Below, piece after piece: positions 15,805 through 33,454 of a stretch of 64,000 nucleotides of DNA. Source of the stretch: Mycobacterium sp. ITM-2016-00317. Its GTDB lineage: Bacteria; Actinomycetota; Actinomycetes; Mycobacteriales; Mycobacteriaceae. The DNA is taken from the NCBI RefSeq assembly GCF_002968295.1, contig NZ_CP134399.1, forward strand, positions 3,410,001-3,474,000. The letters run 5' to 3'. Numbering within the stretch: position 1 is the stretch's first letter; every line of letters starts with the position of its first letter. Below the pieces are notes generated by a model. That model was not told the origin of the DNA. It ran no database searches and saw only the letters and a program-made list of their open reading frames with translations. A program made the translations under genes and the position numbers.

Positions 15805-15850
15805 TCACATCGACGCCCCGGGATCACATGGAGGCCCCAATTCACATGGA
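15805..15850 (-). repeat. Three short direct repeats echoing the pafA stop region
   Basis: The end of pafA (TCCATGTGA on the minus strand, 15842-15850) is followed by the same nine bases at 15824-15832 and a one-mismatch copy at 15805-15813, with spacings of 18 and 19 nt. It looks like a small tandem duplication of the gene end. Confidence 0.6.
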
Positions 15851-17200: not shown

Positions 17201-17207
17201 CTCATCG

Positions 17208-17213
17208 AGACTA
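17208..17213 (-). promoter_or_regulatory. -10 box for pafA, leaderless
   Basis: TAGTCT on the minus strand ends 7 nt before GTG 17200. The same hexamer and spacing occur before the RecB-like gene at 40567. Confidence 0.6.
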
Positions 17214-17303
17214 CTTGTTGCGAGGCTCACAGGGCGGCCGGACACTCGACGAGCCCTGTGGATAACCCGGCCGGACCGGCCTCGGGGTCTGTCAGCATGA
17301 GCC

Positions 17304-17582
17304 ATGGGGGAAATCGCTCACGTCGACACCGACCGCCTGCACGCGCTGGCGGGACGCTTCGACGGCACGGCGTCCGCGGTCGCCGACATGTCGCGGCCCG
17401 TGCTGGAACCGGGCGCGCTGCCCGCCGCGGTGGTGTCGGGGTTGGGGATCGACGCGCTGCTCGCGCCGCAACTGCAGGGCGTCGTCGCCGACCTGGCCGA
17501 CTGGGCCGCGGCCGCCCGCAGCGCCGCCGCGGCGTTCGCCGACACCGACGCCGTCAACGGCGGGCGGTTCACGCCGCGGTGA
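17304..17582 (+). CDS. Small type VII secretion-associated protein (ESX-like, Rv2078-like)
   Basis: The 92-residue Ala-rich helical protein begins [24 protein letters not shown], the pattern of mycobacterial ESAT-6-like/DUF2580 proteins. A second helix ([19 protein letters not shown]) follows after a central turn. No WxG and no YxxxD/E signal is seen, so secretion is uncertain. Its stop overlaps the GTG of the downstream hydrolase by 4 nt, the same pairing as Rv2078-Rv2079 in M. tuberculosis. It is likely a partner or chaperone of that hydrolase. Confidence 0.7.
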
Positions 17583-19276
17583 CCGCCCCGACCGTCTCGA
17601 CGGCGCAGCGGTGGCGGCCCGAGGCGCTGCTGGGGTTGAGCGCCGGCTGTGACGACGCCGCGCGCACACTCACCGCTTTGGTCGACGATGCCGCGGCTGA
17701 AGCCGAACGCAGCCGGGACCACTGGACGGGTGCGGCCGCCGACGCCGCCCGCGAACGCGCACAGCAGATCTCCGCCGTCGCCGCCGAGGTGGCCCGGCGT
17801 CTGGTGACGGCGTCGGTGGCCGCGCGGGACGGCGCCGAGCAGATCACCGCGGCCCGCGCCCACCTGCTCGACGAGGTCGAGCGGGCGCGCCGCGACGGCC
17901 TCGACGTCGCCGACGACGGTTCGGTCACCGTCGCCTCCGCCCCGTCCTCGCTGCTGGTGCTGCTCGCGGGCGGTCAGGAGGCGGTGGCCGTCGACATGCT
18001 CGAAGTCCGGGCCCGGGAGATGAGCGCACGGATCGGTGAGGCGTTGCGCAGGCTGGGTGCGGCCGACGCCGACGCCGCCGACGACATCGCCGCGGCGCTG
18101 GCGGTGTTCGCTGCGCCGGTGCTTGAGCGGCCCGCCGCACCGGTGCTTGAGCGGCCCGCCGCACCGGTGCTTGAGCGGCCCGCCGCGACGGTGCCCGCCG
18201 GGGCGTGGCCCGTGCGCGCCGCCGATGTCGTCGACGCCTGGCCGAGCATGAGCCAGGACCGGATCGCCGCCCAGGTCGCGGCGATGACCCCGGAGCAGCG
18301 CCAGCGGCTGCTGGCCGACTTTCCGGAGCAGGTCGGCAACACCGACGGGATTCCCTGGGACATGCGCGCCGCGGCCAACCGGCTCAACATCGCGGCCGCG
18401 ATCCTCGCCGAGACCGGTTCGGACGGCCCGTCGCGGGACCGCATCGCGTTCTACCGCGGCCTGCTCGGCGAGATCGACGATCCGGCCGGCCGCGGCCGCA
18501 TCACCCGCACGATCGTGGCGTTCGACCCCGGCCGGGCGTCGCTGGTCGAGCTCAACGGTGATCTCGCCGCCGCGCGCAGCCTCGCGGTGCTGGTGCCCGG
18601 GGTGAACACCACGATCGAGGGTTCGGCGGCCAACACGGCCACCGCGCAGCGTTTCGTCGCGGCGACGGGCGGGGACGTCGCGGTGATCACGTACCTGGGC
18701 GGGCCGTTCCCGCAGGTGCACAACCCCGCCGACGTGGTCTTCGACGCCGCCGACCCGCGCTACGCACTCGAGATGGCGCCCCGGCTGGTGGCCTTCAGCG
18801 AGGACGTGGACCGGCAGGTGCCCGACGGCGTACTGGTGACCGTGATGGGCCATTCGTACGGCGGGTCGATCGTCGGCACCGCCGAGACACTCGGGCTGAC
18901 GTCGGACCGCACCCTGTTCCTGGCCGCCGCGGGCGCCGGGGTCGGCGTCGACGACCCCGGCGACTGGCGCAACCGCAATCCCGCCGTCCAGCGCTACTCG
19001 ATGACCGCGCCCGGCGACTTCATCGAGCTGGTCCAGGGCATCCCCGGTGGCCGCCACGGCGCCGACCCGGATGAGATGAGCGGGGTGATCCGTTTGCGCA
19101 CAGGCGTTTACGACGACGGGGGTGCGGTGGCGGGCTGGGATGCCCACAGCGGCATGCTGAACCGGCCTTCGGACGCGTGGCGGACGATCCTGGCGGTGAT
19201 CACCGGGGATCGCCGCACCGTGGACCGCGCCGCGGTGGGCGTCAGTCCCGGGCCGTCCAGCCCAGCCGGCGGCTGA
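17579..19276 (+). CDS. DUF1023 alpha/beta-hydrolase with N-terminal helical type VII-like domain (Rv2079-like)
   Basis: The 565-residue protein has an N-terminal helical region (about 1-170), a linker with three copies of APVLERPA (residues 179-202) and an alpha/beta-hydrolase domain. The nucleophile elbow is GHSYGG with Ser426, and a late GWDAHSGM could supply the catalytic His. No signal peptide is visible. DUF1023 hydrolases in mycobacteria often sit next to ESX-like proteins; the substrate is unknown. The GTG at 17579 overlaps the stop of the small upstream protein. The last 35 nt overlap the 3' end of the IclR gene on the other strand. Confidence 0.82.
   Translation: MTAPTVSTAQRWRPEALLGLSAGCDDAARTLTALVDDAAAEAERSRDHWTGAAADAARERAQQISAVAAEVARRLVTASVAARDGAEQITAARAHLLDEVERARRDGLDVADDGSVTVASAPSSLLVLLAGGQEAVAVDMLEVRAREMSARIGEALRRLGAADADAADDIAAALAVFAAPVLERPAAPVLERPAAPVLERPAATVPAGAWPVRAADVVDAWPSMSQDRIAAQVAAMTPEQRQRLLADFPEQVGNTDGIPWDMRAAANRLNIAAAILAETGSDGPSRDRIAFYRGLLGEIDDPAGRGRITRTIVAFDPGRASLVELNGDLAAARSLAVLVPGVNTTIEGSAANTATAQRFVAATGGDVAVITYLGGPFPQVHNPADVVFDAADPRYALEMAPRLVAFSEDVDRQVPDGVLVTVMGHSYGGSIVGTAETLGLTSDRTLFLAAAGAGVGVDDPGDWRNRNPAVQRYSMTAPGDFIELVQGIPGGRHGADPDEMSGVIRLRTGVYDDGGAVAGWDAHSGMLNRPSDAWRTILAVITGDRRTVDRAAVGVSPGPSSPAGG
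18113..18184 (+). repeat. In-frame 24-bp tandem repeat, three copies
   Basis: Three near-identical 24-nt units (one base differs in unit 1) encode APVLERPA three times in the linker of the DUF1023 hydrolase. Being a multiple of three, copy-number change would keep the frame. Confidence 0.95.
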
Positions 19277-20021
19277 TGCGGTCGGCGGCCGCGACGGTCT
19301 GCTTGGCGACCTCGTCGAAACGGTCCACCGCGAGACGATACGACGGACCCGAAACACTCAGCGCGGCAACGACTTGCGCGTGGACGTCGAACACGGGTGC
19401 GGCGACCGCGTTCAGCCCGACCTCGAGTTCCTCGCAGACACTCGCCCAGCCGCGGTCGCGCACCACCGCCAACTGGTCCTGCAGTTCGACCATCCCGGTC
19501 ACGGTGGACTCGGTGAACGCATCCAGCGGCGGCCGCACCCGGGCCCGCAGTTCGGCGGGATCGAGACCGGCCAGCAGCACCTTGCCGCTCGATGTCGCGT
19601 AGGCCGGGCAGGTCTGCCCCACCCAGGTCCGCAACGTGATCTCGGCGGGGCCGATCGTCTCCACGATGTTGACGATGCGGTCCTGGTCGAGCACCGCGAG
19701 ATTGGCGGTCTCCCCCACCTCGACGCTGAGCGCGTCGCACGCCTCCTGGCCGAGCTTGACCAGGTCGATCTGGCCGCCGGCGACGTGCGCCAGTCGCGGG
19801 ATCGCGAAGCCGAGGCGGTACTTGCCGCGTTCGGAGACCTGTTCGACGTAGCCGCGGGCCTCCAGCGCCGCGATCAGCCGCGACGCCGTGGACTTGTGCA
19901 CGCCCAGCTCTGCGGCGATCTCGGTGACTCCGGCCGCGCCGAGGCCGGCGACGATCTCCAGCACCGTCAGCGCGCGGTCCACCGACTGCACGGCAGCCGG
20001 CGTTCGGTCGTCCATGGCCAT
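19242..20021 (-). CDS. IclR-family transcriptional regulator
   Basis: The 259-residue protein has an N-terminal winged helix-turn-helix (residues about 10-70; VTEIAAELGVHKSTASRLIAAL) and a C-terminal IclR effector domain (YATSSGKVLLAGL, CEELEVGLNAVAAPV). IclR proteins bind small metabolites and switch catabolic operons. It is the last gene of the choline operon, 12 nt after the DUF294 gene, so it is probably its local regulator acting at the palindromes at 31194-31229. ATG 20021 is used; a second ATG at 20015 is possible. Confidence 0.9.
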   Translation of the reverse strand: MAMDDRTPAAVQSVDRALTVLEIVAGLGAAGVTEIAAELGVHKSTASRLIAALEARGYVEQVSERGKYRLGFAIPRLAHVAGGQIDLVKLGQEACDALSVEVGETANLAVLDQDRIVNIVETIGPAEITLRTWVGQTCPAYATSSGKVLLAGLDPAELRARVRPPLDAFTESTVTGMVELQDQLAVVRDRGWASVCEELEVGLNAVAAPVFDVHAQVVAALSVSGPSYRLAVDRFDEVAKQTVAAADRISRRLGWTARD

Positions 20022-20033
20022 TGCGCAGTGAGC

Positions 20034-21881
20034 CTATACGCCGGTGAGCCCGAGATTGCCGACCCGGCGCCGGACCGCGGCGATCTCCCGCAGCCCGTCG
20101 CCGAGCAGGCTGCGGTTCAGCGGGGACAGCTCCGACATCGTGATGATGTCCCCCGGCGCGTGGCCGGCGGCGACCTGATCGACCTGATGGGTCATCCGCA
20201 GCCGTTGCAGCATCGCGAACACGTCGCACAGGGTCTGCGCGTCCCGCTCGCTGAGCGCCCCCGCCTCGGCGCCGGCCTGCAACCGCGTCGGGGTGCTCGC
20301 CGAGGTGACGCCCGCGGTCAGCCCGGCCCACCGGGCCAGGTTCACCACCGGGGTCACCGCATGGTTCTTCAGGTCGAAGGTGCCGCCGCGGCGCGACAAC
20401 ACGTCACGCAGCGACCGGGTGCGCATCTTGCCCGACAGCGCGTCGAGCAGCTGCAGCCGCAACGCGTTCGGGTGCTGTTCGCGGATCCGCTGAAAGGCGG
20501 CGGGCACGGTGTGCAGGCTCGGGTCCCCCCACACCACGCGGGCGTCGATCAGCAGCGACGACAGGATCAGCCCGCGATCGCGCAGCGGGTCGCTCAGCCA
20601 GCCCTGCGCGGTGTGCAGCCAGTCCGACTGCGACCGCGAGAACGTCCTCTTGGACGCGACTGCACCGTTGCGGTCCGACGGCAGACCCGACGCGTCCAGC
20701 ACCTCGTGGACCTCAGCGGCGAGCGCCCGCAGCCGCGGCGCCTGCCCGCCCAGTTCGTCGCGCCAGGACAGCGCGCTGTCGACGTCCGAGGACGGCATCG
20801 CCTCACGCCGCGCCACGCTGCCCAGGGTCAGCCAGGCGAACCCGTCGAGGTTCCGGTTCTGCGGTTGGGCGACAACGAGTTCCAGGGCGCGTCGGACCAG
20901 ACTGTCGACGACGACCGACAGGATGGCGCTGGTGGCGGCCGCCTTCGTGCCGCTGCGGAACAGGTCGACGGCGGTGCCGGTGACGCGCCTGCCTGCGACC
21001 TGCAGTTCGTCGGCGGTGCCCGCCTGGGCGATGGCCCGGCGCAGCATGAAGCTCTGCCGGGCGGTCGCGGCCAGCAGATCGGCGTCTTCGAGTACGCCGA
21101 CGACCTCCCCGCGCGGCGTCAGCACCGGCATGTGCCGCAGCCCGCACTCCAGCATCTCCATCAGCACGCTGTCGGCGGTCAGATCGGCGGTGACCGTGCG
21201 GGCCGGCGCGCTCATCACCCGTTCGATCGCGACGTCGACCGGGACGCCCGCCGCGACGACGCGGGCGCGCAGGTCGCGATCGGTGAAGATGCCGAGCCTC
21301 CCGTCAGGGAGCCGGATCAGCGCGTACGACGCGTGGTGCTCGGTCATCTTCACGACGACGTCGCGCACCGCGTCGCCGGGCTCGACCACCAGCACCTCGC
21401 CGCGCACCAGCTCGCCGACCGGCGTGCTGTCCGCGGCGGGCATCAGCATCGACCGTTCGGCGACGTGGTTCCAGCCGGAAGAGGCCAGGAACGCCAGGCC
21501 CGAGGGCTTGGCGAACTGCGCGCGCACCAGCGGCTCGGGCAGTCGCACCAGCGTGCTGGGCGCGGTGGTTCTGGCCTCGAAATCCATTCCTGCGCCTGCC
21601 AGTAGTGGCATGTAGCCGAATATCCCGCCCGGGGTCACGTTGTCGATGAGCGCGCCGTCACCGCTGGTCCGCAACGCGACGGCGCCGTCGCGCACCATCC
21701 ACACCTCGTCGGGCACCCCGGTCGCGTAGTCGGCGACCACCACGCCGGCCGGGAACCGCGTCAGCGACGCCCCGCCGGCCAGCGCGTCGAGTTCGTCTTG
21801 CGTCGATCCCTGGAACGGGGTGTGCCCGGCCAGGAACGCGGCGAGGCCGGCCTTCTCAGGTGGCTCTGATGAGGTCGGCAC
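20034..21881 (-). CDS. cNMP-binding / CBS / DUF294 nucleotidyltransferase-like protein
   Basis: The 615-residue protein has a cyclic-nucleotide-binding-like domain at about 15-130, two CBS repeats at about 150-270 and a DUF294 nucleotidyltransferase-like domain. That last domain carries LGSVARREAMPSSDVDSA (residues about 353-370), the GS...D-x-D signature. A helical DUF294 C-terminal region follows. The layout suggests a signalling enzyme that senses adenine nucleotides and modifies a partner, as GlnD-type transferases do, but no target is known. The GTG start overlaps the stop of the GMC gene by 26 nt. Co-transcription with choline genes suggests nucleotide-linked control of that pathway. 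Confidence 0.85.
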   Translation of the reverse strand: MPTSSEPPEKAGLAAFLAGHTPFQGSTQDELDALAGGASLTRFPAGVVVADYATGVPDEVWMVRDGAVALRTSGDGALIDNVTPGGIFGYMPLLAGAGMDFEARTTAPSTLVRLPEPLVRAQFAKPSGLAFLASSGWNHVAERSMLMPAADSTPVGELVRGEVLVVEPGDAVRDVVVKMTEHHASYALIRLPDGRLGIFTDRDLRARVVAAGVPVDVAIERVMSAPARTVTADLTADSVLMEMLECGLRHMPVLTPRGEVVGVLEDADLLAATARQSFMLRRAIAQAGTADELQVAGRRVTGTAVDLFRSGTKAAATSAILSVVVDSLVRRALELVVAQPQNRNLDGFAWLTLGSVARREAMPSSDVDSALSWRDELGGQAPRLRALAAEVHEVLDASGLPSDRNGAVASKRTFSRSQSDWLHTAQGWLSDPLRDRGLILSSLLIDARVVWGDPSLHTVPAAFQRIREQHPNALRLQLLDALSGKMRTRSLRDVLSRRGGTFDLKNHAVTPVVNLARWAGLTAGVTSASTPTRLQAGAEAGALSERDAQTLCDVFAMLQRLRMTHQVDQVAAGHAPGDIITMSELSPLNRSLLGDGLREIAAVRRRVGNLGLTGV

Positions 21882-23379
21882 ACTTCTCAGCCATCGTCAT
21901 CACGGTGATGTTCGGGTTGACCGACGGCAACTTCGGCATGGCCGAGGCGTCCACCACACGCAGCCCGGTGACCCCTTTGACCCGCAGTTGCGGATCGAGC
22001 ACCGCCATCGGGTCCGACACCGCACCCATCCGCGCGGTCGCGGCCGGGTGGTAGACGGTGTTGTGACAGCGGTGGATGTAGTCGAGCAGCTCGTCGTCGG
22101 TGGTCGCACCGGCGCCGGGGGCCAGTTCCCGGCCCACCCAGGGCGTCAACGGCGCCTGTTCGGCGATGCGGCGGGCCAGCCTGACCCCGGCGAGCATGAT
22201 GCGTTCGTCGTAGCCGTCGGGGTCGGTGAAGTAGCGCGGGTCCACCCTGGCCCGGTCGCGGAAATCCCGGGAGCGCAACCGCACCGTGCCCCGGGACCGC
22301 CCCTGCGTCACGTTGGGGGTCAGGCAGAATCCGTTGTCGGTGGTCGGGTATCCGTGGCGCAGCGTGTTCATGTCGAACGGGACACTGCCGTAGTGCATCA
22401 TCAGGTCCGGCTGGCGCAGACCCTCGTCGACGGTGGTGAACAGGCCGATCTCCCACCACTGGGTCGACGTGCGCACCATGGGTTGGGCGGCCTCCCAGAA
22501 CACCAGCCCCTCGACGTGGTCGTCGAGGTTCGCGCCGACCCCCGGTGAGTCCACCCGGACGTCGACGCCGATCTCGCGCAGGTGGGCGGTGGGACCGATT
22601 CCGGAGAGCATCAACAACTTCGGGGTGTCGATCGCGCCGGCGGTGGCGATCACCTCGCGCCGCGCGGACACCGTGTCGTAGCCGGTGAGGTCGGGCCGCT
22701 GATAGCGCACCCCGGTGGCGCGTGACTGCTCGTCGAACAGGATCTCCGACACCCACGAGTCGGTGCGGACCTCCAGGTTCCTGCGGGTGCCGAGGATCGG
22801 GTGCAGGAACGCGTGGCTGGTCGAGAGCCGGGTGCCGTCCTCGGTCGCGTTGATCTGGAACCAGCCCGCGCCGTTGCGCACCGTCTCGCCGCGGTTGAAC
22901 TTCACCGTCGGTATGCCGATCTGCGTCGCCGCGTCGAGAACCGCTGTGCCGCAGGGATCGTGGGGCGGCACGTCGCGCAGCACCACGGTCTCGGCGAGCC
23001 GCCGGACCAGCGGCAGCACGTCCTCGGCGCCCCACCCGGTGGCGCCCATCGTCACCCACTCGTCGAGCGCCTCGGCGGGCGGAAGGAACGCGATGCACGA
23101 GTTGTGCGACGAGCAACCGCCGAGCACCTTGGCCCTGGCATGACGCATGAACGAGTTCCCGCGCTCCTGCGGTTCGATCGGGTAGTCCCAGTCGTAGCCG
23201 GAGTCCAGCAGGTGCATCCAGTCCGACAGCACCAGGATCGCGTCGTCGCCGACGTCGGACGGGCCCGCCTCGACCAGGCACACCGTCACGTCGGGGTCCT
23301 CGGAAAGCCGTGCCGCGAGCACGCATCCGGCGGTGCCGCCGCCGGCGATCACGTAATCGAAGGTCGCGTCCTCAGCCAT
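21856..23379 (-). CDS. GMC-family FAD oxidoreductase, choline dehydrogenase-like
   Basis: The 507-residue protein has the FAD dinucleotide motif at the start (YVIAGGGTAGCVLAARLSE), the GMC signature region GGCSSHNSCIAFLP, and a C-terminal catalytic pair: His in YHPAATARMG and Asn in SVNPNITVM. GMC enzymes of this type oxidise choline to betaine aldehyde and often on to glycine betaine. Substrate is inferred from the operon, with betaine-aldehyde dehydrogenase and betaine demethylation genes alongside. ATG 23379 overlaps the stop of the transporter gene by 8 nt; a GTG two codons earlier is also possible. Confidence 0.87.
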   Translation of the reverse strand: MAEDATFDYVIAGGGTAGCVLAARLSEDPDVTVCLVEAGPSDVGDDAILVLSDWMHLLDSGYDWDYPIEPQERGNSFMRHARAKVLGGCSSHNSCIAFLPPAEALDEWVTMGATGWGAEDVLPLVRRLAETVVLRDVPPHDPCGTAVLDAATQIGIPTVKFNRGETVRNGAGWFQINATEDGTRLSTSHAFLHPILGTRRNLEVRTDSWVSEILFDEQSRATGVRYQRPDLTGYDTVSARREVIATAGAIDTPKLLMLSGIGPTAHLREIGVDVRVDSPGVGANLDDHVEGLVFWEAAQPMVRTSTQWWEIGLFTTVDEGLRQPDLMMHYGSVPFDMNTLRHGYPTTDNGFCLTPNVTQGRSRGTVRLRSRDFRDRARVDPRYFTDPDGYDERIMLAGVRLARRIAEQAPLTPWVGRELAPGAGATTDDELLDYIHRCHNTVYHPAATARMGAVSDPMAVLDPQLRVKGVTGLRVVDASAMPKLPSVNPNITVMTMAEKCADLIRAT

Positions 23380-24901
23380 CGGCACCCGCCAGGGTCTCGG
23401 CGGCGTGGGACTTCAGCGTGCCGATGTGTTTGCGGCCCTTGACGAAATACCAGAGCAGGCCGGCGCCGACGATGATGCCGATGTAGACGAACGCGCCCCA
23501 GGTGTTGTACCAGGGTTCGCCGTAGACGGCGGCGCGCGGCCAGGCCAGGTTCAGTGCCATGCCGATACCCCACACCACGGCCACGATGTTGACCGGCAGC
23601 CCCCAGCGTCCCATGGTGAAGTAACCGCCCTCCTTGAGATCCGCCGGCGGCCACTGACCCTGCAGCCTCTTCTTCAGCAGCGGCCCGGTGACCATCAGGT
23701 AGGCCAGGTAGATCATGATGATCGCGATCGAGGTCAGCACCGTGAAGATCTGCGGATTGGCGATGTTGACGACCAGGATGATCACCGCGATGATCCCGAT
23801 GGTCACCGCGGGGACGATCGGGGTCTGGGTTCTCGGGTTCACCGTGGCCAGCTTCTCGCCGAACGGCAGCGCGTTGTCGCGGGCCATCGCGAACGTCAAC
23901 CGGATCGCGGCGGTGTGCACCGCCAGGCAGCACACCGTCACCGCGATCACGATGCATGCCAGGAAGATCTTCCCCAGCGGGCCCCACATCACCTGCTCGA
24001 CGATGTACTGCAAACCGCCGCTGCTCTCGCCGAGCTGCGGGTCCTGCAGGTTCGGCGCGGCCATCACCGCGAACACCAGGATGCCGCCGCCGATCACGAA
24101 CGAGGCCAGAATGGCCCGCGCGATCGCCTTGGGGGCGGTGCGGCGCGGTTCCACCGTCTCCTCGCCCAGTGAGCTCGCGGTGTCGAATCCGTACATCACA
24201 TAACCCGACGCCAGCGACGCGATCAGGAACGCACCGAGAAAGCCCATGCTCTCCCCGGCGCCGTAGCCGTTGGTGGAGAAGAAGATCTGCGGGCTGTTCT
24301 GCACATTGATCGCCAGCAGGAACACGATGAGCACCGCGGCGATCAACTCGATGAACACGCCGCTGGAGTTGATCCGCGACATCAGCCGCACCCCGAGCGC
24401 GTTGACCAGCGTGGTGAACATGATCAGCACCGTGCCGAGCAGCACAGCGTTGGCGGCGTAGTCGTAGGTGCCGGAGCCGTCGCCGATGACTTGGAAGCCG
24501 CTCCACAGTCGGGGCAGGTTCAGTTGGTAGGCCAGCGCGACCGCCGAGATCGTCACGATCGAAGCCGTCAACATCAGCCAGCCCGAGGTCCAGCCGACCA
24601 GCCGGCTGGCCAGTTTCTTGCTCCAGTTGTAGACCGAGCCGGCCACCGGGTATTTGGCGGCCAGTTCCATGAAGCACAGTGCGACGGCCATCTGGCCGAC
24701 GAACACCATGGGCCACGACCACAGGTAGGCCGGTCCGGCGGTGCCGTAACCGAAGTAGAAGAGCTGGAACGTGCCGGTCAGAATCGAGATGTAGCTGACG
24801 CCCGCGGCGAAGCTGGCGAACTTCCCGATGCTGCGGTCCAGTGACTCCTTGTAGCCGAAATCCTCCATGCCGCTGTCGGTATGGGGCTGTTTGATCACCA
24901 T
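23372..24901 (-). CDS. APC-superfamily permease (amino acid/choline transporter family)
   Basis: The 509-residue integral membrane protein has about 12 hydrophobic helices. Its N-terminal region SIGKFASFAAGVSYISILTG and the segment SLGEETVEPRRTAPKAI are typical of the amino acid/choline transporter (ACT) group of APC permeases. In this operon it most likely imports choline, glycine betaine or a related quaternary amine, but the sequence alone would also allow GABA or another amino acid. ATG 24901 was chosen because a purine-rich GGGAAGGGAC lies upstream and the extended frame is not protein-like. It follows the aldehyde dehydrogenase gene by 28 nt. Confidence 0.86.
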   Translation of the reverse strand: MVIKQPHTDSGMEDFGYKESLDRSIGKFASFAAGVSYISILTGTFQLFYFGYGTAGPAYLWSWPMVFVGQMAVALCFMELAAKYPVAGSVYNWSKKLASRLVGWTSGWLMLTASIVTISAVALAYQLNLPRLWSGFQVIGDGSGTYDYAANAVLLGTVLIMFTTLVNALGVRLMSRINSSGVFIELIAAVLIVFLLAINVQNSPQIFFSTNGYGAGESMGFLGAFLIASLASGYVMYGFDTASSLGEETVEPRRTAPKAIARAILASFVIGGGILVFAVMAAPNLQDPQLGESSGGLQYIVEQVMWGPLGKIFLACIVIAVTVCCLAVHTAAIRLTFAMARDNALPFGEKLATVNPRTQTPIVPAVTIGIIAVIILVVNIANPQIFTVLTSIAIIMIYLAYLMVTGPLLKKRLQGQWPPADLKEGGYFTMGRWGLPVNIVAVVWGIGMALNLAWPRAAVYGEPWYNTWGAFVYIGIIVGAGLLWYFVKGRKHIGTLKSHAAETLAGADG

Positions 24902-24929
24902 TTCAGAGCCTGTCCCTTCCCCGGACGGA

Positions 24930-26423
24930 CTAACCTTTGAACCAGCCCGCAGCAGTGGGAGCGGTGTTGTGCCAGATGTGTTTGAGTTCCTGGTATTCCG
25001 CGAGCCCGGTGGGCCCCAACTCGCGGCCGTTGCCGGACCTGCCGAATCCGCCCCATTCCGCCGCGGCGGTGTAGTAGCCGAAGTCGTTGAGCCACACCGT
25101 GCCGTGCCGCAGTGCCCGCACCGCACGTTCGCCCCGCGCCGGATCCGAAGTGCGGACACCGGCGGCGAGACCGTATTCCGTGTCGTTGCCGAGAGCGATC
25201 GCCTCGTCCTCGGTGGTGAACCGCTCGACCGTCAGTATCGGGCCGAACGTCTCTTCCTGCACGATTCGCATCGACCGGTCACAGCGGTCGAAGATGGTGG
25301 GCAGGAAGAAATATCCGTCGGCCAGCGCGGGTTCGTCCGGCCGCCGGCCGCCGCACACCAGCCGGGCGCCTTCGGAGATGCCCAGTTGCACATAGCCTTC
25401 CACCTTCGCGCGGTGCTGCTCGGAGACCAGCGGCCCGGTCTCGCTGGCCGGGTCCAGCCCGTCCCCCATCCGGATCTTGCCCGCCCGCGCGGCGAGTGCG
25501 GCGACGAAGTCGTCGGCCACGGACTCCTCGACGATCAGCCGGGTGCCGGCCGAGCACACCTGCCCGGAGTGCAGGAAGACCCCGGTCAGGACGTGGTCGA
25601 CCGCCGCGTCCCAGCCGCCGTCGGCATCCGTGACGTCGGCGAACACGATGTGCGGGTTCTTGCCGCCGAGCTCGAGCGCGACCTTGGTGACGTGCTCGGC
25701 CGCGGTCCGCGCGATGGTGCGTCCGGTGGCCAGACCCCCGGTGAACGAGATGAAGTCGACGGCCGGGTTGTCGGTCAGCGCGGCGCCGAGCGTGGCGCCG
25801 CTGCCCTGCACCAGATTCACCACCCCGGGCGGCACCCCGGCCTCGACCAGCAACCGGACGAACGCGATCGTGGTCAGCGGCGTGACCTCGCTGGGTTTGG
25901 CGACCATCGTGCACCCGGCCGCCAGTGCCGGCGCGACCTTCCACGACATCTGCAGCAGCGGATAGTTCCACGGCGCGATCAGCACGCAGACCCCGATCGG
26001 TTCGCGCACCACGCGACTGACCACGGCGGGGTCGCCGACGTCGACGACGCGGTCGGACTCGGCGCCGATCAGCTTGGCGTAGTAGCGGAAAACCGAGGTG
26101 ACGTCGTCGATGTCGATCCGGCTCTCAGCCAGCGTCTTGCCGGTGTCGACGGTCTCCAGCCCGGCCAGCTCCTCCTTGTCGCGCTGCAGCAGGTCGGCGA
26201 CCCGGTCGAGCATCGCGGCGCGTTCGGTCACCGGCGTGTTCGGCCACAGACTGTCGTCGAACGCCGCCCTGGCGGCCTCGACCGCGGCGCAGGCGTCCTC
26301 GGGGGTGGCTTCGTCGACGACGGCGGCGACCTTGCCGCGGGCCGGGTTGACGATGTCGCGGGTGCCGCCGTCGGACGCGTGCCGCCAGACGCCGCCGATG
26401 TACAGGTCGGGTTCGCCGTCCAT
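24930..26423 (-). CDS. betB: Aldehyde dehydrogenase, betaine-aldehyde dehydrogenase type
   Basis: The 497-residue protein has full ALDH length. The catalytic residues are present: Glu251 (LELGGKNP) and Cys290 (SGQVCSAGTR). The Rossmann segment FTGGLATGRTIARTA and APWNYPL are also present. It should oxidise betaine aldehyde to glycine betaine with NAD(P)+ in the cytoplasm; the symbol rests on family resemblance plus position beside a choline-dehydrogenase-like gene. Spacing to the Rieske gene upstream is 26 nt, consistent with one transcript. Confidence 0.85.
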   Translation of the reverse strand: MDGEPDLYIGGVWRHASDGGTRDIVNPARGKVAAVVDEATPEDACAAVEAARAAFDDSLWPNTPVTERAAMLDRVADLLQRDKEELAGLETVDTGKTLAESRIDIDDVTSVFRYYAKLIGAESDRVVDVGDPAVVSRVVREPIGVCVLIAPWNYPLLQMSWKVAPALAAGCTMVAKPSEVTPLTTIAFVRLLVEAGVPPGVVNLVQGSGATLGAALTDNPAVDFISFTGGLATGRTIARTAAEHVTKVALELGGKNPHIVFADVTDADGGWDAAVDHVLTGVFLHSGQVCSAGTRLIVEESVADDFVAALAARAGKIRMGDGLDPASETGPLVSEQHRAKVEGYVQLGISEGARLVCGGRRPDEPALADGYFFLPTIFDRCDRSMRIVQEETFGPILTVERFTTEDEAIALGNDTEYGLAAGVRTSDPARGERAVRALRHGTVWLNDFGYYTAAAEWGGFGRSGNGRELGPTGLAEYQELKHIWHNTAPTAAGWFKG

Positions 26424-26449
26424 GGCCTACCGGAGCCCTCTCGTCGTGT

Positions 26450-27586
26450 CTACAACGCAGCCGCCAGCCGGGACACTACCCACGAATGGAACTCCGCGAG
26501 GTGGTGTTCGGCGGGAACGAGTACCCCGCCGTCGCGGTAGGCACGCGAGGACATCGCCGGCTGTGTCCGTTCACACGCCTCGAAGTCCTGCAGGTTGACC
26601 CGGTGGAACAGCTCCACGGAGTTCGACACGTCGCGCGCCGAGCCCACCACGTCACCGGTGTAGAGCCAGTCGCACTCGACCACGGTGCGGTCAGGCGCGA
26701 CCGGATACATGCGGTGGAAGATGACGTGGTCGGGGACCAGATTCAGGAACACCGTGGGCTTGACGGTGATCGCGAAGTAGCGCCGGTCCTGCTCGTCGCT
26801 GATGCCCGGCAACCGTTCGAAGCCGGCGCCGCCGCCGACGGTGAACCCGGCCACCCCGGAACCGAACTGCGCGCCGAGGCCGATGTTGGATTGTGCCGCG
26901 ACACCGCGGGCGAACTCGGGCAGCACCCCGACGAGTTCGGGGTGGATGGTGCTGCAGTGGTAGCACTCCATGAAGTTCTCGACGATCAGCTTCCAGTTGG
27001 CGGCGACGTCGTAGACCACGCGGTGCCCGACGTCCAGGCCTCCGATGCCGTACCGGTTCACGGCGTCGGGGTCCCCGAGCGTGCGGGCGGTCTCGGCCAT
27101 CACGTCCTCGAACGGCGGTGGGGTGTCGGCCAGGCACACCCAGGCGTAGCCGAGCCACTCGGTCAGCGCCACCGGCACCAGACCGTAGCGATACCGGTCG
27201 ATCGGTGCGCCCTCGCCGTCGGTCAGCGTGCCGATGTTGGGCGCGGCGACGAGTCGGCCGTCCAGCGCGTAGGTCCACGAGTGGTACGGACAGCGCAGGG
27301 TGCGTTTCACCTCGCCCTCACCCTCGACGCACAACTGCGCGCCGCGGTGCCGGCACACGTTCAGGAACGCCCGCAGAAGTCCGTCGCGGCCGCGCACCAG
27401 AAGCACGCTCTCGCGGCCGACCTGGACTTTCTTGAACCGGCCCGGGTCCGCCAGGTCGGCCGACCGGGCGGCGCAGAACCACATGGCCTCGAAGATGTGC
27501 TCCTGCTCGGCGGCGAACACCTCGGCGCTGGTGTAGTAGCGGCCGCCGAGGGTGGCCAGCAGGGCGGGCGCCAGTTTTGCGGTCAT
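26450..27586 (-). CDS. Rieske non-heme iron oxygenase, glycine-betaine monooxygenase-like (GbcA type)
   Basis: The 378-residue protein is an oxygenase alpha subunit. The Rieske 2Fe-2S ligands are Cys78, His80, Cys99 and His102 (CRH and CPYH). The mononuclear iron site is His210 and His215 in ECYHCSTIH, with Asp334 in NLQDFEACE. Similar enzymes (GbcA, stachydrine demethylase, choline monooxygenase) oxidatively demethylate or hydroxylate quaternary amines. In this operon, glycine betaine to dimethylglycine is the missing step it would fill. The ATG overlaps the stop of the sarcosine oxidase gene by 4 nt. No reductase partner gene lies in the operon. Confidence 0.86.
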
Positions 27587-28716
27587 GCGGTCACCAATCT
27601 GCGGGGGTCGAACAGCGAGATCGGGTGCGCCGTCGCACCGGAGATGGCCAGATCGGCGAGGATCTCCCCCACCACGGGCACGAATTTGAAGCCGTGCCCG
27701 GAGAAACCGCACGCCACCGTCACGTTCACGCTGTCGGGGTGGCGTGCGATCACGAAGTGCTGGTCGGGGGTGTTGGAGTACATGCAGGTCGCCGAATGCA
27801 GGCAAGGGCCGTCCAACTTGGGGATCAATTCGGCCGCGCGGGTGCGCATCTCGCGGATCTCGCGTTCACCCACGGTGCGGTCGATGGTCTCGGGCGTGCA
27901 CTCCACACCCTTGCGGAAGAACGCGACCTTCACCCCGCCGCGCGGTCCGTCGATGGCCGGGAAACCGTAGCTCTGCACACCGGAGCTGTCCTCGTCGATG
28001 AAGATCGGCTGATCCTCGAACGCGGCGGTGCCGCCGACGGGGTCGAGCCAGTAGAGCACTTGCCGTTCCACGGTGATCGGAATGCCGAACTCGGCGAGCA
28101 GTTGCGGGGCCCAGGCACCGGGACAGATCACCAGTTGACCCGCGGTGTACACACCGGCGGCGGTGCGCACCGTCACCCCGTCCGGCGTCGCGGTCCACTC
28201 CGTCACCTCCTCGCCGAACCGCAGGGTGGCCCCGGCGTTGCCGGCCAGGTCGAGGTGAGCCTGCACGGTCAGCTCCGGGCGGGCGAAACCGGCCTTGGCC
28301 TCGTAGAGCGCGATGTCGCCCGGATCGGGGGTGAAATTCGGGAAGCGCGAGCGGATCTCGTGTTCGTCGAGCAGTTCGTGGGGCAGGTCCCACTGCCGGC
28401 TGGCGCGCAGGCTGCCTGCGACGGTCAGGCAGTCCGGCGGCCCGATGAACAGCCCGCCGGTGAGGCGGTACACGTCGCGCCCGCTGTCGCGGGCCAGCTG
28501 CTCCCACAGGTCATAGGCGCGCAGCAGCAGCGGAACGTAGGCCGGGTCCTCGAAGTAGGACTGCCGGATGATGCGCGATCCGCCGTGGCTGGATCCCCGG
28601 TCGTGGGCGGGACCGAACTTCTCCAGCCCGAGGACGCGTTGCCCGCGCGCGGCCAGATGGTAGGCCGCGGCGCTGCCCATCCCACCCAGACCGATCACGA
28701 TGACGTCGAAAGTCAT
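27583..28716 (-). CDS. Monomeric sarcosine oxidase-like FAD amine oxidase
   Basis: The 377-residue protein has the normal length for monomeric sarcosine oxidase / N-methyltryptophan oxidase. FAD motif [18 protein letters not shown] begins at residue 5, and [15 protein letters not shown] follows. Cys311 in [14 protein letters not shown] corresponds to the cysteine that binds FAD covalently, and [10 protein letters not shown] is the C-terminal hallmark. It would oxidise sarcosine to glycine, formaldehyde and H2O2. The ATG lies 4 nt after the stop of the dimethylglycine oxidase gene. Confidence 0.88.
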
Positions 28717-28720
28717 TGCG

Positions 28721-31165
28721 TTACCTTCTGATCCGGGCCATCGTCGGATCCACGACGGGCTCGGCGTGGACGGCGGCGGTGTGCGTGGTGCCGTGGTAGT
28801 CGACGGTGACGGCGGCGCCGACGCCGACGTGCGCGGGCAGCCACGCGTAGGCCAGGGTGCGGCCGAGAGTCGCGGAGTAGCCGGCGCTGGTCACGTAGCC
28901 CACCGGTGCGCCGTCGACGAACACCGGCTCCTTGCCCAGCACGGCCGCGTCGGGATCGTCGAACACGATGGTGCACAACATGTTCTGCGGTATGGGGGCC
29001 TGCTCCAGCGCGGCCTGGCCGACGAAGCCACCGGGCTTGTCCATCCGCACCGCGAAGTCCAGTCCCGCTGTGGCGGGCCGGTGTTCGGCGGTCATGTCGG
29101 TGCCCCAGCTGCGGTAACCCTTCTCGATGCGCAGGCTGTTGAACGCGATCCGGCCGGCCGGGATGATGCCGTGCGGCGCGCCGGCCGCGGCGACCAGATC
29201 CCACAGCGCGGCACCGTATTCGGCGCTGGTGTAGATCTCCCAGCCGAGTTCGCCGACGTAGGAGACGCGCAGCATGGTGACCGGGATCGCGCCGAGATGG
29301 GTGTGCAGGGCGCGGAAGTACTTGAACGCGTCGTGGGACACGTCGTCGGGGCACAGCGGGGCGATGACGTCACGGGCAAAGGGTCCCCAGACGCCGACAC
29401 AGCAGGTGCCGCCGGTGATGTCGCGCAGCACGACGTCGGACGGTCGGTGGCGTGAGAGCCAGTCGAAGTCCATCGGGGAGTTCGCACCGACCTGGAAGGT
29501 GTCTTCGGCCAGTCGGGCGACCGTGAGATCGCTTCGGATGCCGCCGGTGTGGTCGAGCATCAGGGTGTAGGTGACCGACCCGACGCTCTTGTCGACGTTG
29601 TTGGTGGTCATCCGCTGCAGGAACGCGGCGGCACCGGGCCCGGAGACCTCGTAGCGGGTCAGCGGGGTCATGTCGTACATCGCGACGTGTTCACGGGTCC
29701 AGTGCGCCTCGGCGATCGAGATCGGCGACCAGAACTTCGCGGCCCACTCGTCACGGCGCGGCACCGGCAGGCCGTCGTCGAACAGGCGCTGAGCGAGTGC
29801 GGCGTTGGCCTCGAACCAGGCCGGCCGTTCCCAGCCGCCGCCTTCGTAGAAGTACGCGCCGAGCCCGGTGTGCCGGGCGTGGAACGGGCTGGTGCGCAGG
29901 CCGCGCAGCGCAGTGCGGTACTGGTGCGGATGGACGACGTCGTAGACCTCGACGAACGCCTGGGAACTGGTCTGCATCACGAACTTCGGACTGCGGGCGG
30001 CCTCTTCGAACCGGTACAGGTCGCATTCGTGGGTGTCGGTCGACGGGGCACCGTCGATGATCCATTCGGCCGTGGCCTTGGCCACCCCGGCCGAATGGGT
30101 CACCCACACCGCCTCGGCCACCCAGAATCCCGGAAGCTCGCGGTGTTCGCCCATCAGTGAGAAGCCGTCGGGGGTGAACGAGAAGATCCCGTTGAAGGCC
30201 TCTTCGACCTTCGAATCGTGCAGCGCCGGAATCAGATCGGCAGCGGCACGCCAGGCGGGCGCGAAGTCCTCCTCGGTGAACGGCATCATCGACGGCATCG
30301 GCTCGCCCGCGGTGTCGGCGAGCAGAGTGGACATGTCCACCGGCATCGGCTTGTGGCGGTAGGACCCGATCCCGAGCCGGTCGACGTGTTCGCGGAAGTA
30401 GAGGTCCTGATCCTGGTGCCGCAGGATCGGCAGTCCGGCCTCGGTGAGTTCGGTGTTGCGGCCGACGAGTTCGGCGATCTGGCCGGTGCGGGCGTACTGG
30501 TGGGCCATCGGCACCAGCGGCAACACCAGGCCCACCTGGCTGGCCAGCTGTGCGCCCCAGAATCCGGCGGCACAGACCACGATGTCGGCGGCGAGGACGC
30601 CGTCGGCGGTGCGCACCCCTGTCACGCGGCGTCCGTCGTCGACGATGCCGAGCACCTCGGTGTGCGGGCGCAGGGTGGCGCCGCGGGATTCGGCGCGGCG
30701 GGCCTGCGCCTCGGCGGCCCGCAGGGCCTTGGCCAGCCCGTCGGCGGGGGTGTGGAAGCCGCCGAGAATACGGTCGCGGTCGACCAGTGGGTGTAGTCGC
30801 ACGCACTCGGCCGGGGTCAGCAGGCGACCTTCGATGCCCCACGACCGGGCCCAGCCGGCCTTGCGGTGCAGGTCGGCCCAGCGCTGCGCGGTGGTGGCGA
30901 CCTCCAGCCCGCCGACCGGGTTGAAGGCCCACCCGTCGGGGTGCTGCAGCGCGCTGAACTTCTCGACGGTGTAGCGCGCGAATTCGGTCATGGTCTTGGA
31001 CGGGTTGGTCTGGAACACCAGTCCGGGGGCGTGGGAGGTGGAACCACCGGTGGCGAACAGTGGTCCGCGGTCGACGACGGTGACGTCCGTCCATCCCCGT
31101 GCGGTCAATTCATCGGCCAGTGACGTCCCGACGATGCCGGCCCCGATCACGACGACTTTCGGCAT
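28721..31165 (-). CDS. Dimethylglycine oxidase/dehydrogenase with C-terminal folate (GcvT-like) domain
   Basis: The 814-residue protein closely follows, throughout its length, the Arthrobacter dimethylglycine oxidase as I recall it. The N-terminal FAD domain has [17 protein letters not shown] and [19 protein letters not shown]. The central FAO-type linker has [13 protein letters not shown]. From about residue 440 an aminomethyltransferase/GcvT-type domain follows ([41 protein letters not shown]). It removes a methyl group from dimethylglycine to give sarcosine, passing the C1 unit to tetrahydrofolate. It is the first gene of the eight-gene minus-strand operon. Confidence 0.92.
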
Positions 31166-31193: not shown

Positions 31194-31229
31194 GTTGCGT
31201 ATTACACAACTCGATGCGTTATACGCAAC
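31194..31229. promoter_or_regulatory. Twin palindromic operator upstream of the choline operon
   Basis: A perfect 9-bp inverted repeat, GTTGCGTAT (31194-31202) and ATACGCAAC (31221-31229), spans two similar internal dyads. These are TTGCGTATTACACAA (31195-31209) and ATGCGTTATACGCAA (31214-31228), centred 19 bp apart, about two helical turns. The size and dyad form suit an IclR-type dimer pair. The site lies 29-64 bp upstream of the dimethylglycine oxidase ATG. Confidence 0.75.
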
Positions 31230-31362
31230 AAATCATCCATCCTGGTCGGACCAGGCGCAAGATGGACACACCTTGGGGGTTCCTGTGAAAACCGTCTGTC
31301 GGGGTGGCGGGACATACTCGCGGCGACGAGAGGGACACGCGCACGGCGACGAGGGGGCCCGG

Positions 31363-31543
31363 ATGGCGGACGACGAGCACCGGGGCGCCGACAAACCTGT
31401 CGAACTCGAGAGCCTGCCCGACCGGCTACGACGAGGCGGTGCGCGATGCGCGCCGCCTCTACCTGTCGCGGGGGCAGATCGGTGCGATCCTGGGCGTCTC
31501 CCGCCAGCAACTGCACCGGCGATACCGCGATGCGCCGGATTAG
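31363..31543 (+). pseudogene. Small helix-turn-helix protein gene with an apparent one-base frame break
   Basis: ATG 31363 follows a GAGGGGG ribosome-binding site and reads MADDEHRGADKPVELESLPDR. The frame then fails. One base later the other frame reads YDEAVRDARRLYLSRGQIG and [19 protein letters not shown] to a TAG at 31541. The second part is a convincing helix-turn-helix (GQIGAILGVSRQQLHRR). Removing one base near 31428-31431 joins them into a 59-residue protein. An intact 79-residue reading from GTG 31304 exists but its N-terminus is not protein-like. It converges on prcA with a 4-nt overlap. The function is presumably DNA binding; the target is unknown. Confidence 0.55.
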
Positions 31544-32295
31544 GCGTCGGCGTCGCCGGCTTCGGCCGCGTCCTCTTCGCCGTCACCCGAATCAGGTTGC
31601 GGCAAAAGCGCTTCCAGCGCCGAACCGGTGATGCGGCGGAATGCCCGTCGCGGCCGGTTCACGTCCAGGATCGCCACCTCGAGCGTGGCCAGCCCCAGCG
31701 TGCGCGGTTCGGTACCGTTGCCACCCGCACCGAGCGCGCTGACCGCGACCGACACCGCGTCGGCCAGGCTCGCGTTCTCGGTGTAGGACTCGTTCAAAGC
31801 CGTCAGGATCGGCTCGGTGGTACCGCCCATCACCACGAAGTGCGGCTCGTCGGCAATCGAACCGTCGTAGGTGATGCGATACAGCTCAGGCGCTTTGGTC
31901 TCGCCGTAGTGCGCGACCTCGGCCACGCACAGTTCGACCTCGTAGGGCTTGGCCTGTTCGGTGAAGATCGTGCCGAGGGTCTGGGCGTAGACGTTGGCCA
32001 GCTGACGGCCGGTGACGTCGCGCCGCGAGTACGCATAACCCTGGGTGTCGGCGAACCGGATCCCCCCGCTGCGCAGGTTGTTGAACTCGTTGAACCGGCC
32101 GACGGCGGCGAAGCCCACCCGGTCGTAGAGCTCACTGACCTTCTGCAGGGACCGCGACGGGTTCTCCGCGACGAACAGCACACCGTCGGCGTAGGCCAGC
32201 GCGATCACGCTGCGGCCGCGGGCGATGCCCTTGCGCGCGAGCTCCGACCGCTCACGCATCGCCTGTTCGGGCGAGATGAAATACGGGAAGCTCAC
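31540..32295 (-). CDS. prcA: 20S proteasome alpha subunit PrcA
   Basis: The 251-residue protein begins [26 protein letters not shown], the mycobacterial PrcA start whose N-terminus forms the gated pore. The alpha-type fold continues ([25 protein letters not shown]). The acidic C-terminal tail ([12 protein letters not shown]) is typical. Alpha rings cap the beta rings and dock Mpa through its GQYL end. GTG 32295 overlaps the prcB stop (GTGA). Confidence 0.96.
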
Positions 32296-33209: not shown

Positions 33210-33400
33210 TGGCCGCCCTTCTGGACGTAGGCGCGCACGAAGTCTTCGGCGTTCTCCTCCAGGACGTCGTCGATCTCGTCCAGCAGGTCGTCGGTCTCGT
33301 CGGTCAGCTTCTCCCGGCGCTCCTGCCCGGCGGCCCCGTTGCCGGGGAGGTCGTCGTCCTCGCCGCCTCCGCCGCCACGCTTGGTCTGCTCCTGAGCCAT
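33206..33400 (-). CDS. pup: Prokaryotic ubiquitin-like protein Pup
   Basis: The 64-residue disordered protein ends in GGQ. Dop deamidates the final Gln to Glu, after which PafA links it to target lysines. The central helix ([34 protein letters not shown]) is the segment that pairs with the coiled coil of Mpa. A strong AGGAGG site precedes the ATG. pup-prcB-prcA are chained by 4-nt overlaps. Confidence 0.97.
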
Positions 33401-33454
33401 CGCTGCCTCCTGCGTAAGTTGCGGGCACCCGACCCCATGCCCGTCGGTCTCTCC

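Follow-up and report, generated by a model that had tools for sequence, protein, structure and literature searches.

The window analysed here is a 64,000-nt stretch of the genome of Mycobacterium sp. ITM-2016-00317. Eight minus-strand genes occupy its positions 19242-31165 in the order DMGO, SOX, Rieske oxygenase (RO), BADH, APC, GMC, DUF294 and IclR, the IclR gene being the last. Stop-start distances revealed gaps of 4-28 nt (DMGO-SOX, 4 nt; RO-BADH, 26 nt; BADH-APC, 28 nt; DUF294-IclR, 12 nt) and overlaps of 4-26 nt (SOX/RO, 4 nt; APC/GMC, 8 nt; GMC/DUF294, 26 nt). The strand, gene order and tight spacing given in the original prediction were thus borne out, family scans placed each protein in the superfamily that it had named, and matches to TIGR03686 and TIGR03691 confirmed the location between pafA and prcA. 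The features are as follows.

31255..31260, minus strand: -35-like hexamer, TTGCGC
31232..31237, minus strand: -10-like hexamer, GATGAT
31213..31229, minus strand: predicted IclR-type operator box 1, GTTGCGTATAACGCATC
31194..31210, minus strand: predicted IclR-type operator box 2, GTTGTGTAATACGCAAC
28721..31165, minus strand: N,N-dimethylglycine oxidase (DMGO), FAD domain and GcvT-like folate domain, 814 aa
27583..28716, minus strand: monomeric sarcosine oxidase family protein (SOX), 377 aa (7exs, 298 bits; 1zov, 254 bits)
26450..27586, minus strand: Rieske oxygenase, 378 aa, with the motif ENFMECYHC (E-C-x-H-C hallmark of group V)
24930..26423, minus strand: betaine aldehyde dehydrogenase family protein (BADH), 497 aa (TIGR01804; 5eyu)
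23372..24901, minus strand: permease of the APC superfamily, predicted to import choline, 509 aa (PF13520)
21856..23379, minus strand: GMC flavoprotein of the choline-oxidase type, 507 aa (full-length match to choline oxidase 2jbv, 701 bits)
20034..21881, minus strand: protein with cNMP-binding, CBS, DUF294 nucleotidyltransferase and DUF294_C domains, 615 aa
19242..20021, minus strand: IclR-family regulator, 259 aa (PF01614, 144.5 bits; PF09339, 57.8 bits)
about 17612-19276, plus strand: alpha/beta hydrolase gene between IclR and pafA, convergent
15842-17305: pafA (TIGR03686 match)
31540-32295: prcA (TIGR03691 match)
32292-33428: prcB (TIGR03690 match)

The same eight genes recur in the same order in 30 of 71 mapped loci, and six more loci keep this order without SOX; the arrangement is therefore not due to chance. 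An ORF at 21887-23326 was rejected as the GMC gene, as it lies in a different frame and matches no family. A plasmid search returned two records, 68% and 44% identical.

A promoter-like pair of hexamers and two predicted operator boxes precede DMGO. The -35-like hexamer was chosen as the best match and is not among the sites of a stricter scan; it recurs as TTGCGC, TTGCGT or TTGACG, mostly 17 nt ahead of the -10, in most upstream regions whose DMGO is at least 73% identical. The -10-like hexamer, located a few nucleotides ahead of the first operator half-site, is found identical or as a near variant in most of these regions, and the boxes are regularly spaced behind the promoter-like pair in relatives. 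Boxes 1 and 2 are the only two sites within two mismatches of GTTGCGTANNACGCAAC in the 6.06-Mb genome, but this count alone proves nothing because a backward-read control pattern matched as often (two forward and three reverse matches). In contrast, the family operator motif (at least 12 of 15 positions) occurs upstream of 83 of 120 DMGO genes versus 3 of 120 for the reversed control. The IclR gene and this conserved box pair support the predicted single operon with its own regulator. IclR would occupy the two boxes just past the -10 and block transcription until a pathway amine binds.

Comparison of loci revealed that the operon joins two modules, DMGO-SOX-RO-IclR for the conversion of betaine to glycine, and BADH-APC-GMC-DUF294 for that of choline to betaine. 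Among the 62 mycobacterial loci with more than 7 kb on both sides, 38 carry the full BADH-APC-GMC-DUF294 set and 17 carry none of it. By itself, the core occupies the proteasome site in four loci (L149, L150, L159 and L167) and adjoins a BCCT transporter gene in L173-L179. DMGO lies in the examined stretch of 103 of the 130 full oxygenase loci, 41 of which lack both BADH and GMC at thresholds of at least 50% and 55%, respectively; 21 loci have BADH without DMGO in this stretch, and 6 have none of the three. The locus L153 holds an eroded operon in which the choline cassette is the broken part. The gene set is not special to the genus, as Nocardia and Streptomyces also possess runs of the type DMGO-(SOX)-RO-BADH-APC-GMC.

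For the choline module, the GMC protein resembles choline oxidase over its full length and keeps ten active-site positions. These are also kept in the compared relatives, except for two positions in two 46%-identical Streptomyces sequences. Choline dehydrogenase was rejected, as the betA model gave 326 bits against a cut-off of 732. BADH scored 578.5 bits with TIGR01804, the best of 42 models yet below the 668.6 cut-off, and 524 bits with betaine aldehyde dehydrogenase 5eyu. The permease remained below the cut-offs of TIGR03428 (537 vs 740 bits) and TIGR00907 (168 vs 598 bits). The DUF294 protein keeps the catalytic nucleotidyltransferase signature GS..D.D, and the longer motif GS..R.E.....D.D is conserved in 48/48 sequences. 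This motif is shared with GlnD and GlnE, from which the protein differs by its cNMP and CBS domains and its linkage to choline genes; DUF294_C has been grouped with the C-terminal domains of GlnD/GlnE in text excerpted from PMC3710099. Its gene is part of the choline module; more speculatively, the protein most likely acts as a gate on the uptake or oxidation of choline.

On the betaine side, DMGO matched the Arthrobacter globiformis enzyme 1pj5 over its full length (1043 bits). It contains both FAD and folate domains, and keeps what we take to be the active-site His and Tyr and the folate-site Asp, with equivalents of H48 in 111/111 sequences and of H225, Y259 and D552 in 113/113. SOX passed a single model, PRK11259, named N-methyl-L-tryptophan oxidase (487.5 vs a cut-off of 257), and stayed below that of TIGR01377 soxA_mon (304 vs 480). 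The presumed flavin Cys and substrate Arg and Lys are kept in 78/78 SOX sequences, and the position of the active-site His269 of MSOX is Phe in all 78. The original prediction of a folate-dependent step feeding C1 units stands for DMGO, the only pathway oxidase with a folate domain; SOX and the oxygenase should therefore release free formaldehyde. The genome encodes four GCV_T proteins, namely DMGO, two frames about the size of a single domain (390 and 387 aa), and a DUF1989+GcvT protein, so no SoxA was seen among them. A 909-aa GcvT protein at 1627 kb was rejected as SoxA since its domains are DUF1989 and GcvT.

The new point of the locus is the Rieske oxygenase, which is not of the known betaine-cutting kind. 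Its assignment to group V is clear: the Rieske Cys/His residues, the bridging Glu and the Cys-x-x-Cys pair are present in 151/151 sequences, as are all metal ligands, and the motif is kept in 150/150. The oxygenase scored 207 bits with the GbcA model NF058607, against a cut-off of 670. Furthermore, a Phe that aligns with Tyr203 of CntA occupies this position in 150/150 relatives, whereas Asn was found in 12/12 GbcA-like loci. In the tree, the Asn group is monophyletic (100/99) and excludes the window oxygenase, which thus lies outside the GbcA/Stc2 demethylase (Vb) clade; the place of CntA itself is unsure given its very long branch (4.07). According to excerpts of PMC7948474, published glycine-betaine demethylases (group Vb) bear Asn at this position, and the aromatic residue of group Va is tied to choline, carnitine and benzalkonium. 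The predicted route from choline to glycine is backed by strong full-length matches for choline oxidase, BADH and DMGO; its betaine-demethylation step rests on gene context, because the oxygenase scores far below the GbcA cut-off and bears the Va, not the Vb, residue.

The route had also been called complete, a claim that failed at the electron supply. Neither a ferredoxin nor a reductase for the oxygenase, GbcB included, is encoded among the eight genes, and no ferredoxin was seen by eye among the ORFs between DMGO and prcA. Of the 130 full loci, 65 have a Rieske ferredoxin in the vicinity of the oxygenase; among the 60 non-mycobacterial loci, 49 have this ferredoxin and 47 a BphA4-type reductase nearby. 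By contrast, genome-wide searches failed to find the dedicated ferredoxin in 51 of the 54 genomes with this type of operon, and the other three keep it beside a second oxygenase. The genome of ITM-2016-00317 itself has no orthologue of the usual Rieske ferredoxin (best relative, 40% identity), and a family check for the BphA4-type reductase found one standalone relative (42% identity). Of its 15 FNR-type matches, the four inspected by eye read as parts of other gene sets, and a distant partner may exist among the other eleven. A BCCT gene at 1555 kb was considered as lying beside a GbcAB pair and rejected, since by eye its neighbours read as a desaturase and its reductase. No substitute ferredoxin was seen by eye in six ferredoxin-less loci (L169, L170, L173, L174, L178 and L204) among frames of at least 90 aa, the only ones listed by the gene caller, so a small ferredoxin would escape this inspection. 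With the dedicated ferredoxin gone in the lineage, the oxygenase presumably depends on a different cellular ferredoxin or reductase.

GbcAB/BmoAB glycine betaine monooxygenases (Vb) share the predicted reaction and the E-C-x-H-C hallmark, and GbcA-like loci likewise lie beside dimethylglycine or sarcosine oxidase genes. However, the FNR-type reductase of GbcAB is replaced by a Rieske ferredoxin and a BphA4-type reductase in the loci of the oxygenase relatives, and by nothing in this operon. The ferredoxin of L042 passed the PRK09965 cut-off (148 vs 113) and the best model for the reductase was HcaD (238 bits, below the 450 cut-off), which recalls the Hca/And-type chain (HcaC, HcaD); here these partners lie near a group V amine oxygenase, unlike in the dioxygenase setting. 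The two-component carnitine monooxygenase CntAB (Va), as described in parts of PMC7948474, PMC9508527 and PMC10952381, shares the aromatic residue at position 203, the bridging Glu and the Cys pair, but differs in gene context and electron chain. In Arthrobacter, as far as excerpts of PMC3534580 describe it, choline oxidase adjoins BADH, DMGO is present, and sarcosine oxidase accompanies glyA and sdaA. These genes lie at separate loci (ARUE_c04530, c04830, c39610-39670) with a tetrameric sarcosine oxidase, and the same text, which cites Meskys 2001, gives betaine use as 'incomplete' for a strain that nevertheless grows on this compound. The GbcAB kind has already been named in Actinomycetota, as bmoA/bmoB are annotated in Paenarthrobacter in the excerpted text of PMC11945447. 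Among the open-access papers listed by our searches, we saw none that describes this operon or a betaine demethylase with three components.

We considered whether the oxygenase could instead be a choline monooxygenase, plant-like, or another quaternary-amine enzyme, with betaine demethylated outside the operon. The Phe is indeed the signature of group Va, whose members oxidise choline, carnitine or benzalkonium, the choline monooxygenases named in excerpts of PMC7948474 fall in the same subgroup, and the 21 loci with BADH but no DMGO agree with such a role. Yet a choline oxidase is already present in the operon, the 41 loci described above pair the oxygenase with DMGO in the absence of BADH and GMC, and DMGO would be left without a substrate in the core-only loci. 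Furthermore, the slot near DMGO filled here by the oxygenase is filled by a GbcA-GbcB-like pair in L305 and L308, two of the four such loci examined, which supports a betaine demethylase. We therefore regard this alternative as unlikely. Many organisms obtain an osmoprotectant by converting choline to betaine, and the cNMP/CBS sensors could report the state of the cell; the operon might thus chiefly make and hold betaine as an osmoprotectant, with demethylation as overflow. We find this somewhat less plausible still, as genes for synthesis and destruction lie in the same operon behind a single pair of upstream boxes, the regulator is an IclR and not an osmotic one, and the core exists alone without choline genes. 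Finally, a dead or vestigial oxygenase that has lost its electron carriers would agree with the missing ferredoxin orthologue in 51/54 genomes and with the eroded operon of L153, although the choline cassette is the broken part there, but is very improbable given the invariant metal ligands, bridging Glu and motif.

The operon most likely converts choline into glycine. Choline would be imported by the APC permease and, on strong family evidence, oxidised by choline oxidase and BADH to betaine aldehyde and then betaine. Judging from context, the Rieske oxygenase, of a second, non-GbcA betaine-pathway kind that forms a three-component system in other loci, would split betaine into dimethylglycine and formaldehyde. 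DMGO probably yields sarcosine and hands the C1 unit to folate, again on strong family evidence, and sarcosine oxidase, with fair family evidence, would yield glycine. The oxygenase is best read as a second type of betaine demethylase, one that works with three components elsewhere and is rewired here, and whose substrate and donor we infer. Overall, we consider it probable that the locus is a single IclR-controlled choline-eating operon with a second-kind, non-GbcA Rieske oxygenase fed by another donor. It is plausible, though we advance it tentatively, that Actinomycetota evolved a second demethylase for glycine betaine, a group V enzyme of three components with a Va-type aromatic residue, so that the published Va/Vb residue rule does not predict the substrate. 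In this view, the enzyme lost its dedicated ferredoxin in the mycobacterial lineage with the operon between prcA and pafA and was rewired to a different cellular donor, and a cNMP/CBS/nucleotidyltransferase protein was added as a gate on choline use.

The removal of the first methyl group from glycine betaine is poorly settled in many Actinomycetota. An oxygenase of another subgroup in that slot, found in several families of this phylum with a different electron chain, is a directly testable candidate, and its case warns against inferring substrate from a single residue. With their natural loss of the ferredoxin, mycobacteria lend themselves to studies of how a Rieske oxygenase switches from one electron donor to another.

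The eight minus-strand genes of the original prediction were recovered, separated by gaps of 4, 26, 28 and 12 nt or overlapping by 4, 8 and 26 nt, and family matches confirmed their placement between prcA and pafA. On the pafA side, a convergent alpha/beta hydrolase gene precedes pafA. The genome is a single contig of 6.06 Mb. In a genome-collection scan (best 80 of 590 relatives), which may omit this genome's own records, the nearest named relatives by oxygenase were Mycobacterium sp. NAZ190054 (92%) and Mycolicibacterium chubuense and M. chlorophenolicum (88%).

31165 to 19242, minus strand: operon, from dimethylglycine oxidase (DMGO) to IclR, whose gene closes the operon it belongs to
27583-28716, minus strand: sarcosine oxidase family gene (SOX)
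31304-31543, plus strand: putative 79-aa ORF between DMGO and prcA, with a helix-turn-helix-like stretch at its end (by eye)

The proposed choline-to-glycine families stood by match for choline oxidase, betaine aldehyde dehydrogenase (BADH) and DMGO, fairly for SOX, and from context only for the oxygenase. DMGO matched the A. globiformis enzyme over its full length (1043 bits), and by family its step after betaine is firm. The GMC protein scored 701 bits against choline oxidase and 326 bits against the choline dehydrogenase model betA (cut-off 732), and retained all ten choline-oxidase positions checked. The best model for BADH was betaine aldehyde dehydrogenase (578.5 bits, under the cut-off of 668.6), as were its best structures, e.g. 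5eyu. SOX exceeded the cut-off of PRK11259, a model named N-methyl-L-tryptophan oxidase, and fell under that of soxA_mon; its nearest structures are sarcosine oxidases, the flavin Cys and substrate Arg/Lys are retained, and its step after betaine is fairly assigned. The Bacillus MSOX His269 position is Phe in 78/78 SOX relatives (the window protein and 77 others), with Ser at Thr48, and SOX of these operons may perhaps form a distinct subfamily. The top model of the APC permease was a urea-carboxylase-system permease, under cut-off; context suggests choline as its cargo. Elsewhere in this genome, near 1.627 Mb, a 909-aa frame (L049, 5686-8415) that combines DUF1989 with GcvT adjoins a flavin monooxygenase-like gene; its domain content ruled it out as a sarcosine oxidase.

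Judging by family membership, hydrogen peroxide should arise from choline oxidase, from DMGO and from SOX, while the oxygenase and SOX should release free formaldehyde. The suggested folate-dependent C1 step would apply to DMGO, the only enzyme of the set expected to hand a C1 unit to folate, and not to the rest. Relatives of glyA and sdaA share the stretch in two Nocardia loci (L206, L208) and one Mycolicibacterium locus (L209), which fits a glycine to serine to pyruvate route; but over 151 loci (collection part, best 80 of 590 relatives), glyA occurred in 24, sdaA in 12 and both in 6.

Group V hallmarks, as set out in PMC10952381, were present in 151/151 oxygenase relatives, and the motif ENFMECYHC in 150/150. 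According to PMC7948474, group Va has an aromatic residue at position 203 of CntA, the carnitine monooxygenase oxygenase, and acts on carnitine, choline and benzalkonium, while group Vb has Asn there and acts on glycine betaine and stachydrine. The window oxygenase carries Phe, so this published rule argues against its being a betaine demethylase. In the tree, the sequences with Asn formed a single clade (100/99) with the window oxygenase outside (97/93); the CntA branch was too long for placement. The main rival, a choline monooxygenase, agrees with the residue rule, and we consider it improbable on account of the gene context. Of 130 full loci, 103 had DMGO in the stretch, and in 41 of those neither BADH nor GMC exceeded its threshold; BADH without DMGO was found in 21, and none of DMGO, BADH and GMC in 6 (best 80 of 590 relatives for the collection part). 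A model of GbcA, the known glycine betaine monooxygenase oxygenase, matched at 1e-60 in 12 of 346 Actinomycetota genomes, none over cut-off, with the motif ENNRECYHC in 12/12. At all four of these loci that were opened, a frame read by eye as an FNR-type reductase ending in a 2Fe-2S segment lay beside the GbcA-like gene (at one, 301.5 bits to the reductase GbcB, cut-off 500), and two of the four also contained DMGO, at 69% and 52% identity. Because of DMGO co-location and this GbcA-GbcB-like pair in one locus with DMGO in two other genomes, the oxygenase should be a betaine demethylase. In our judgment context outweighs the residue rule, and the oxygenase is probably a betaine demethylase, its step after betaine being contextual.

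Other oxygenases were also seen. A third, group V-like kind with ENYQECYHC (6/6) lies in another context in mycobacterial stretches L309-L314 (~9-10 kb in each); in L310, it has as neighbours an ALDH of the aminobutyraldehyde dehydrogenase type (PRK13473 over cut-off), a binding protein of the spermidine/putrescine type and an aminotransferase-like gene. A Priestia megaterium plasmid from a hypersaline site (NZ_CP071467.1, 39818-40915) encodes a 44% identical oxygenase.

In loci L041 and L042, a Rieske ferredoxin and a ferredoxin reductase adjoin the oxygenase. The L042 ferredoxin has a Rieske domain and the reductase Pyr_redox_2 and Reductase_C domains; the former exceeded the PRK09965 cut-off, and the latter was closest to HcaD, a dioxygenase-chain ferredoxin reductase, under cut-off. 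Among the 130 full loci (151 minus 20 whose flanks were short and one in which the oxygenase was cut; collection part, best 80 of 590 relatives), the ferredoxin (at least 50%) was within the stretch in 65, and the reductase also in 60 of those. The 60 non-mycobacterial full loci among them had the ferredoxin in 49, the reductase in 47 and both in 44. On an oxygenase tree leaving out the window protein itself, the side of its close relatives comprised 54 loci lacking the ferredoxin and 4 having it, and on the other side 61 loci had it and 11 lacked it. A genome-wide search, which recovered 4/4 positive controls, found the ferredoxin (at least 59%) in 3 of 54 genomes with an oxygenase of at least 74% (G359, G176, G178), each time beside a second oxygenase of 64-65%, and in 8 of 22 genomes with an oxygenase of 68-73%, the G065 copy beside a second oxygenase; given the fragmented state of several assemblies, any single absence is tentative. 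The best relative of the ferredoxin in the window's own genome was 40% identical, in a gene reading by eye as NirD, and the only Reductase_C protein was a standalone gene at 42%. Therefore, the operon, which lacks both genes, does not encode the complete route originally predicted. Group V enzymes are described as two-component oxygenases in PMC9508527; the kind studied here would differ in component number.

Two palindromic boxes 5' of DMGO, GTTGCGTATAACGCATC and GTTGTGTAATACGCAAC, are predicted operators. At up to 2 mismatches, GTTGCGTANNACGCAAC matched only these boxes in the whole genome, while its backward control gave 2 forward and 3 reverse matches, so the evidence lies in position and conservation rather than in the genome count. 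A site with at least 12/15 matches occurred in 83/120 DMGO upstream regions versus 3/120 in the reversed control, and in 40/140 IclR upstream regions versus 1, divergent pairs possibly being counted twice. Most of 64 upstreams (DMGO at least 69%) also showed a TTGCGC-/TTGACG-like hexamer, ~17 nt and a GATGAT-/AATCAT-like hexamer stopping a few nt short of the boxes; this pair was picked as best match, hence not an independent test, and is absent from a stricter scan's list. The seven loci at 70-72% DMGO identity differ, and one locus (L212) has nothing. The arrangement fits a repressor at the start site.

The full gene order, DMGO-SOX-oxygenase-BADH-APC-GMC-DUF294-IclR, was found in 30 of 71 loci, the order minus SOX in 6 (L039, L152, L162, L164, L168, L196), and the core alone in 14.

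Loci with the core DMGO-SOX-oxygenase-IclR alone
Proteasome site (n=4): L149, L150, L159, L167
Beside a BCCT transporter (n=7): L173-L179
Elsewhere: L043, L169, L170

In L153 (10228-13030), part of the choline cassette has been naturally deleted, leaving BADH residues 1-94, APC 422-515 and DUF294 1-238, with DMGO, SOX, oxygenase and IclR intact. The 62 mycobacterial loci flanked by over 7 kb at either end comprised 38 with the full BADH-APC-GMC-DUF294 cassette, 17 with no cassette gene, 3 with BADH alone, L153, and 3 with BADH-APC-GMC up to the stretch end (L181 showing the DUF294 start). Because of this distribution, DUF294 goes with the choline cassette and not the betaine core. All nine non-mycobacterial full loci with APC and GMC (2 Nocardia, 7 Streptomyces; collection part, best 80 of 590 relatives) lacked DUF294 beside the cassette. 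Some records duplicate others (e.g. L199 and L160), so all of these tallies refer to loci and not to independent species. The nucleotidyltransferase motif was retained in 48/48 DUF294 proteins, and PMC3710099 classes DUF294_C with GlnD/GlnE C-terminal domains. As a guess that fits its link to the cassette, DUF294 might gate choline use via nucleotidylation. A second DUF294 protein, 33-36% identical, lies between oxygenase and cassette in L181 (12640-14355, behind a sugar-transporter-like MFS gene), L182 (4789-6585) and L184 (4685-6385).

Across 396 genomes of a genus sample, the oxygenase matched at 1e-60 in 106, at least 63% in 92 and at least 74% in 54. An oxygenase of at least 73% was found in 42 of the 71 loci, 34 of which shared their stretch with prcA, pafA, both of these or the hydrolase, and 8 with none of them. 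Fifteen operon-less genomes, drawn from 20 located and including one with a different oxygenase of the same family elsewhere (G031), had prcA outside the stretch in 4 and a prcA-pafA distance of 15 to 5242 bp in 11; the spacing is only 15 bp in G031 (L288) and 97 bp in G034 (L289), and up to 5.2 kb in others. This spread marks the prcA-pafA interval as a site of variable insertion within the proteasome locus.
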